Assembly: GCF_001542905.1 (NCBI RefSeq)
Contig: NZ_LOAJ01000001.1
Coordinates: forward strand, 248,001-312,000
Source of the DNA: Halorubrum aethiopicum
GTDB taxonomy: Archaea; Halobacteriota; Halobacteria; Halobacteriales; Haloferacaceae
Reading direction: 5' to 3'
DNA length: 64,000 bases
The notes under the pieces were generated by a model, which worked only from the letters and a program-made list of their open reading frames with translations, was not told the origin of the DNA and did no database searches. Shown here in pieces: positions 26,253 to 27,482 of the stretch. Within the stretch, counting starts at the first letter, position 1, and the number at the start of each line of letters is the position of its first letter. A program made the translations under genes and the position numbers.

Positions 26253-26798
26253 CTAGGTCGCCGAGCCATTTCGGGGTTTCGAGCCGTCCTCGCCGCCGCC
26301 CCGGAGCCGGTAGTGCGTCCAGAACACGACCGCGGCGGCGAGGACGGGGAACAGCGCACCGACCGGTCGCGGGAGCGCGTACAGCGCCGACAGCAGCACG
26401 GACTCGGTCGGGTCGCGCAGGTCCGCGGGCGCGGTGACGATCAGCCCGAGGTACAGCGAGGCCAGGAAGAGGAAGCCCGCGTACGCCAGCTTCCGGTCGT
26501 AGCCGGCCGCGACGGGGAGCCCCCGACGGTGGCGGCGGGCGACGAAGAGCAGCGGGGCCAGGAGGGGGGCGACGGCGGCGAAGCCGAGGACCACGTACAG
26601 AGAGCGCGTGAACAGGTACGTCCCGCTCGGGACGCCGGCGGTCTCCGCCATCCAGACGACGAGCGCGAGCGTGACGACGAGCGCGATGGCCGCGGTCGCC
26701 AGCGCGCCGATCACCCCGTAGACGCGCATCGTCCACGAGTCGGTGGTGCGGATCGCGTACGGGATCGCGCCGAACACCCCCCGGTAGCTGTCTGTCAT
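26253..26798 (-). CDS. Haloarchaeal four-helix membrane protein
   Basis: 181 residues, beginning MTDSYRGVFGAIPYAIRTTD. Four or five hydrophobic segments: about 27-50, 60-85, 104-123, 130-160. The opening YRGVFGAxPYAxR is shared by a family of uncharacterised haloarchaeal proteins (recollection). It ends 8 bases before the DUF5812 gene and is probably cotranscribed with it. The C-terminal tail is short and charged. No catalytic motif is seen. Confidence 0.72.
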   Translation of the reverse strand: MTDSYRGVFGAIPYAIRTTDSWTMRVYGVIGALATAAIALVVTLALVVWMAETAGVPSGTYLFTRSLYVVLGFAAVAPLLAPLLFVARRHRRGLPVAAGYDRKLAYAGFLFLASLYLGLIVTAPADLRDPTESVLLSALYALPRPVGALFPVLAAAVVFWTHYRLRGGGEDGSKPRNGSAT

Positions 26799-26873
26799 CG
26801 TTCGAGGTAGGAGCGACGACCGATTAAACCCCTCGTCCGCGAGGTTTTACACCCCGCGGGGCGATCGGCGACC

Positions 26874-27482
26874 GTGGGTCTCTACGACGCGTACCTCGGC
26901 GTCCGCCACCGCCTCCACGAGGGGGATCCCCCCGAGCACGTCGCCATCGTCATCACCGAGCGCGACCTGCTCGCGGATGGCGCGTTCGACACCCTCGCCG
27001 CGGCGCTGGACTGGGCGTTCGACTACGGGGCCGAACGAGTGACCGTCTCCGTCTCCGTGCTCGACGAGGCGGTGGTCCCCTCGCTCGTCCGGGAGTTCCG
27101 GGACCTGGACGCGCCGCGGCCGATGTCGATCCGCGGGCCGGACGACACCGAGTCGGCGGACGCCCCGATCCGCGTGAACGTCGGTCTCGGCGGGAAAGCC
27201 GAGTTCGCGGCCGCGGTCCGTGACATCGCCGCCGACGTCGACGCCGGCGAGTTGCGGCCCGAGGAGATCGACGAGGCGGCCGTGACCGACCGGCTGGTGT
27301 TCCCGACCGAGCCCGACCTGGTGATCAAGACCGGCGCGGAGCGGCTCTCCGACTTCGCCATCTGGCAGTCGGTGTACGCCGAGCTCTACTTCACCGACGT
27401 GAACTGGCGGGAGTTCAGGCGGCGGGACTACCTGCGTGCGGTCCTCGACTTCCAGGACAGACAGCGGCGGTTCGGTCGGTGA
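26874..27482 (+). CDS. cis-Prenyltransferase (UppS)-like protein lacking the catalytic motif
   Basis: 202 residues from a GTG at 26874. The C-terminal half is unmistakably UPP synthase-like: PDLVIKTGAERLSDFAIWQS, then VYAELYFTDVNWREFRRRDY, then LRAVLDFQDRQRRFG. That includes the RxG-like KTGAERLS, the WQS-YAELYFTD signature and a terminal RxFG. The N-terminal half is reduced: the catalytic HxAxIMDGNxRWA is replaced by EHVAIVITERDLL, without the Asp and the Arg/Trp. So the protein keeps the diphosphate-site end but not the residues for catalysis, as in the eukaryotic partner subunits NgBR/Nus1. It may be a partner of a separate catalytic UppS making polyprenyl carriers for protein N-glycosylation. 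Confidence 0.82.
   Translation: MGLYDAYLGVRHRLHEGDPPEHVAIVITERDLLADGAFDTLAAALDWAFDYGAERVTVSVSVLDEAVVPSLVREFRDLDAPRPMSIRGPDDTESADAPIRVNVGLGGKAEFAAAVRDIAADVDAGELRPEEIDEAAVTDRLVFPTEPDLVIKTGAERLSDFAIWQSVYAELYFTDVNWREFRRRDYLRAVLDFQDRQRRFGR

Follow-up and report, generated by a model that had tools for sequence, protein, structure and literature searches.

In Archaeoglobus fulgidus, the heteromeric cis-prenyltransferase (cPT) Af1219/Af0707 reportedly requires both of its subunits and is probably a heterotetramer, and its likeness to human hCIT/NgBR is said to have been regarded as convergent. The human enzyme DHDDS/NgBR (NUS1; 6z1n, 6w2l) resembles the archaeal pair described here in that its non-catalytic subunit has a short, degenerate N-terminal half without DGN and a C-terminal RxG, while its catalytic subunit bears a helical C-terminal extension. 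NgBR differs in possessing an N-terminal transmembrane part and in having lost the WQ..Y.E signature, which the archaeal subunit retains. Bacterial homodimeric UppS (E. coli IspU) shares the fold and the C-terminal half, RxG included, but unlike the archaeal pair it holds the catalytic residues and RxG in a single chain. In M. mazei, MM_0618 and MM_1083 form a heteromeric cPT with C45-50 products (Emi et al. 2019, cited in PMC8131916), and PMC5088576 mentions no more than a group of distant cPT paralogues in euryarchaea. By description, the M. mazei pair is likewise archaeal, from the same phylum, composed of two cooperating cPT paralogues and concerned with the class of glycosyl carrier lipid proposed below. 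It differs in that M. mazei has a third cPT (MM_0014), whereas most haloarchaea searched hold the pair only, and in that the haloarchaeal canonical subunit bears a long helical tail. No report of a haloarchaeal heteromeric cPT was found among the open-licence papers searched; the kind of enzyme is already known as a heteromeric archaeal cPT, and its haloarchaeal, phylum-wide occurrence appears to be new.

The window analysed is a stretch of 64,000 nucleotides from Halorubrum aethiopicum (C1:248001-312000). One of its genes (Table 1) encodes a cPT paralogue, which matches PF01255 at 85.6 bits (E 4.8e-24; Pfam cut-off 27 bits) only in its C-terminal half, over profile positions 115-219 of 219; with phmmer, E. 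coli UppS aligns to this half too, at 1e-19. The sequence-only reading had described an UppS-like protein in which the catalytic HxAxIMDGN region is replaced and the C-terminal half keeps the family signature and an RxG-like element, and each point is borne out. The replaced region reads HVAIVITERDLL, and the stretch that follows this position in the canonical protein, containing R39 and H43, is deleted. The signature lies within the PF01255 match, and the C-terminus is RRFGR, a true RxG. Compared with canonical cPTs, and in E. coli numbering, the signature DLVIKTGAERLSDFAIWQSVYAELYFTDVNW has K for R194 and D for N203 and lacks one residue at H199. Identity to the window protein lies at 62-78% among 25 aligned orthologues from haloarchaea, whose C-terminal halves are sharply conserved, and the closest named relative, from Halorubrum, is 97% identical. 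The GTG start is common to the aligned relatives; a chance ORF or a frameshifted UppS was ruled out, as the orthologues share length and start. The TTTTA-containing stretch upstream may mark where the TATA box of a leaderless haloarchaeal transcript would sit. Orthologues of a Halorubrum subclade (for example L102:559-1221), which gave split matches in the family search, are up to ~30 residues longer, owing to an insertion of acidic, low-complexity sequence at a place corresponding to residues ~89 to ~98 of the window protein; the window species lacks this insertion.

Table 1. Coordinates of the putative non-catalytic cPT subunit gene and its elements (numbered from the first base of the window)
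Feature	Position	Strand	Basis
Putative non-catalytic (NgBR-like) cPT subunit gene	26874..27482	+	ORF, GTG start, 202 aa
HVAIVITERDLL, residues 22-33, in place of HxAxIMDGNRR	26937..26972	+	alignment to E. coli UppS
PF01255-matching C-terminal half, residues 97-201	27162..27476	+	Pfam match
Family signature DLVIKTGAERLSDFAIWQSVYAE, residues 148-170, K for R194, D for N203	27315..27383	+	sequence, alignment
RxG motif R199-F200-G201, followed by a single final residue	27468..27476	+	sequence
TTTTA-containing stretch, about 25 bases before GTG	26843..26850	+	sequence reading

No Pfam family was matched by the N-terminal half of the window protein, and among 35 N-terminal halves PF01255 was matched at E<=1 in 8 (best 0.0011). 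This half is nevertheless a trimmed cPT N-terminal half, according to an AlphaFold2 model and a broad profile. The model, built with 60 haloarchaeal sequences, has a pLDDT of 82.0, with residues 165-174 below 50, and predicts a cPT fold for the whole chain. The best 50 Foldseek matches are all cPTs, the cPT match extending over residues 4-202. VIA-align superimposed the model about equally well on B. subtilis UppS (7jli; Z 14.9, 188 aligned, rmsd 2.9, residues 6..202) and human NgBR (7pax_B; Z 13.9, 179 aligned, rmsd 4.1, residues 1..202). The broad N-terminal profile A3, searched against 177,635 PDB sequences, matched DHDDS (2.3e-5), NUS1 (8.8e-4), Rv1086 (0.0079) and B. subtilis UppS (0.5); its alignment to NUS1 needs no insertion at the DGN stretch, where that to DHDDS skips 11 residues. 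A haloarchaea-only N-terminal profile (A4) gave 8 weak PDB matches, with no cPT among them. An N-terminal membrane anchor of the NgBR type is absent from the 202-residue chain, which in the model starts within the fold (helix 3-14, strand 22-28). An AlphaFold2 model of a Haloferax canonical subunit is weak (pLDDT 69.4) and predicts C-terminal helices at 237-272, 274-287 and 290-305.

A partner subunit calls for a canonical UppS elsewhere in the genome, and exactly one is present. The 3.33-Mb genome contains two PF01255 matches in all, the window gene and a canonical cPT (C1:1341750-1342415, 240.8 bits, profile 1-216), whose ORF of 339 aa (L001 1411-2430) contains HVAVIQDGNRRYA and whose C-terminal region, REASWRRARAER, lacks RxG. 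The same combination is nearly universal. The window protein was found in all 119 genomes of its family that were searched, and at least one canonical protein together with exactly one protein matching PF01255 in the C-terminal half only occurs in 69/69 genomes of the class sample. A phylum sample of 70 genomes, 58 of them beyond the class sample, brought the combined number to 127; 125 of these hold both genes, and the two that hold neither (G170, G178) belong to a single genus. In a wider sample of 390 genomes, where the added ones were scored by the number of PF01255 matches and not by type, at least two matches were found in 385, one in two (G105, G286) and none in three (G170, G178, G469). 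The assemblies of these five exceptional genomes consist of 20 to 270 contigs, and their status may reflect gaps. The mirror-tree correlation of the two subunits, uncorrected for the species tree, is r = 0.89 (65 genomes), a value that species relatedness alone can produce and that is not counted here as evidence.

The two genes lie 1.07 Mb apart in the window genome. Among the 125 genomes that possess both, they are at most 5 kb apart in 68, and in every one of these they are convergent, tail to tail. For 39 convergent pairs that were fetched, the stop-to-stop gap is 0-100 bp in 18, and 3 overlap at their 3' ends. At 80 named haloarchaeal loci the canonical gene falls inside the fetched flank in 38, always convergent, and the tail-to-tail adjacency is found in many haloarchaeal genera. 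At many Halorubrum loci, as in the window, the pair is parted, and the gene is flanked by a PHO4 transporter on one side and a membrane protein/SecF/SecD block on the other. The conserved tail-to-tail layout is unusual for two subunits of one enzyme and possibly reflects a linkage of the genes through their 3' ends. The stops of neighbouring subunit genes are often a few to 60 bp apart (for example L038, L089 and L194). Divergent from the window gene lies a small membrane protein gene (26253-26798, minus strand), conserved in Halorubrum and without a Pfam match.

The distribution of active-site residues was audited at positions whose roles in E. coli UppS are known. Of the 125 genomes with both genes, 65, covering 25 of 26 families, supplied their two proteins for an alignment that also contained the window genome's own pair and E. 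coli UppS (L120). The catalytic set comprised 69 proteins (the 65, the own one and three second copies) and the non-catalytic set 66; the PF01255 proteins L105 and L108 (MM_0014-like) and L107 (divergent) were left out before counting. Gene starts were picked by script, so that L068 is truncated and L029 and L091 are probably overlong at the N-terminus; longer frames contain no DGN. In E. coli numbering, D26, N28, R30, N74 and R77 are all present in 69/69 canonical proteins, as are R194, R200 and S202. RxG near the C-terminus is absent from 67 of them. The five residues together occur in 0/66 non-catalytic proteins, 55 of which have none, seven one and four two, while an RxG end followed by one residue is found in 65/66, the remaining one having K for R. 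The window protein has T, R, L, E and a gap at the five positions, and a gap also at H43. It shares with NgBR a cPT likeness mainly in the C-terminal half, the lack of the catalytic Asp, a C-terminal RxG and a genomic partner without RxG. Only jointly, therefore, do the two genes make up one complete active site; the residues are shared out as in DHDDS/NgBR, which agrees with the NgBR/Nus1 pattern proposed earlier. The two canonical subunits that do bear RxG, L023 (G182) and L024 (G215), have RSG or RAG near the end and come from families with overlapping or nearly touching genes.

Given the canonical UppS in the genome, the residue split, the phylum-wide co-occurrence and the neighbouring genes, the window protein is very probably the partner subunit of a two-subunit cPT, as the sequence-only reading had suggested. 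Against this stand the distance between the two genes in the window genome and the few genomes with fewer than two PF01255 matches. According to the relevant passage of PMC8131916, the Arg of RxG in homodimeric cPTs contacts Mg via water and the Gly backbone contacts the acceptor phosphate, and in PMC7573591 the NgBR C-terminus, with its RxG, is described as reaching through the interface to the active site of DHDDS. The canonical subunit, having lost its C-terminal RxG, would bind the allylic diphosphate and carry out condensation through its intact DGNRR, STENxxRP and RTGG..RTSN motifs. The window protein folds like a cPT but has no active site of its own, and by analogy with NgBR/DHDDS its R199-F200-G201 would extend past the dimer interface to the IPP/Mg site of the partner. 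Together the two would make a polyprenyl (dolichol-type) carrier lipid, the expected product being polyprenyl diphosphate for dolichol-type carriers. We infer the physical dimer, the action of RxG in trans, the product length and the use in N-glycosylation.

Indirect support for a carrier-lipid product comes from the archaeal STT3/AglB (915 bits) that the genome encodes. STT3 was found in 19 of 21 genomes tested and is missing from G170 and G178, which also lack both cPT genes and represent one genus only. G469 has STT3 and no PF01255 match, which counts against a link with N-glycosylation; in three further members of its family the two genes lie within 421 bp, so that a single gap in the assembly could account for the loss of both. 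HVO_2318, the canonical subunit of Haloferax volcanii, appears in PMC9263693 in a list of N-glycosylation proteins and is given as uppS in PMC5898192.

Three other explanations of the window protein were weighed. It might be a homodimeric enzyme that makes another isoprenoid and has reconstructed its active site, perhaps around E29 and D31. These two residues do not vary among 26 aligned haloarchaeal sequences, and a D occupies the column of this region in 59/66 non-catalytic proteins. The full set of five diphosphate-binding residues is kept in none of the 66, the window protein lacks the R39/H43 stretch and any equivalent of N74 and R77, and the canonical enzyme that accompanies it is without RxG; a rebuilt site is accordingly improbable. 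Much the same probability is assigned to a regulatory pseudoenzyme or a moonlighting paralogue acting outside the catalytic complex. The Halorubrum gene does lie apart from its partner, adjoining SecDF and the PHO4 transporter, but what 65/66 of the proteins preserve is RxG in its exact C-terminal position, the very part needed at the active site of a partner that lacks it.

The chance that the gene is a functionless, decaying duplicate is negligible. Its N-terminal half has diverged strongly, to the point where Pfam does not recognise it, but retention in every genome of the family and class samples, the identity among orthologues and the sharply conserved C-terminal half speak against decay; a pseudogene was ruled out by conservation.

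The partner subunit was also compared with eukaryotic NgBR. The archaeal non-catalytic profile A2 matches NUS1 over its full length (50.5 bits, E 2.7e-12, positions 17-204), though it scores UppS (124.1 bits) and DHDDS (86.4 bits) above NUS1. The archaeal catalytic profile A7, from which L045 was left out, matches DHDDS best in the PDB (248.6 bits; E. coli UppS 241.3) and NUS1 at 34.3 bits in the C-terminal half only. As viral-contig scans yielded 2 and 0 loci, too few for a bacterial profile control, single sequences served as controls. The non-catalytic sequence of G177 matches NUS1 at 36.9 bits over 20-213; the catalytic one places DHDDS first (169.8 bits) and reaches NUS1 at 21.3 bits in the C-terminal half only, as does E. 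coli UppS at 21.7 bits. The window protein alone gave no match to NUS1 at E<=1. A tree of the C-terminal half of the archaeal proteins (103 columns, one FastTree run, rooted on E. coli) supports the non-catalytic group at 0.986 and the catalytic group at 0.559.

These comparisons, in which archaeal non-catalytic subunits match NgBR over the full length and better than the catalytic cPTs tested do, hint at a common origin rather than convergence. The shared loss of the DGN stretch and the shared RxG could supply part of the NUS1 score. That the split into catalytic and RxG-donating subunits arose once, in archaea, and that eukaryotes inherited both halves, is offered as a tentative and rather doubtful proposal. 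If true, the archaeal catalytic subunits would be orthologues of DHDDS and the family of the window protein the prokaryotic root of NgBR/Nus1, and a single origin would contradict the convergent view reported from the A. fulgidus work. Because two archaeal subunits resemble two eukaryotic ones, the question of where the eukaryotic enzyme came from is open to direct test. The two-subunit cPT would extend from single archaeal cases to an apparent rule for the whole phylum, with a probable function assigned to what would pass, by Pfam alone, for a second undecaprenyl diphosphate synthase. Genetically tractable haloarchaea could also offer a model for a human enzyme form linked, in a passage of PMC7573591, to retinitis pigmentosa and epileptic encephalopathy.

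Some genomes hold PF01255 proteins besides the pair. A second canonical cPT, both copies being without RxG, occurs in two haloarchaea, G037 (L109/L110) and G021 (L112/L113). The haloarchaeon G120 encodes a third and divergent PF01255 protein, L107 (C1:478925-479599), which contains GLIPDGHRRYA and lies in a 622-codon open frame. L105 (G181) and L108 (G164) are third cPTs that resemble MM_0014 and end in TLGG, as described for that M. mazei protein.
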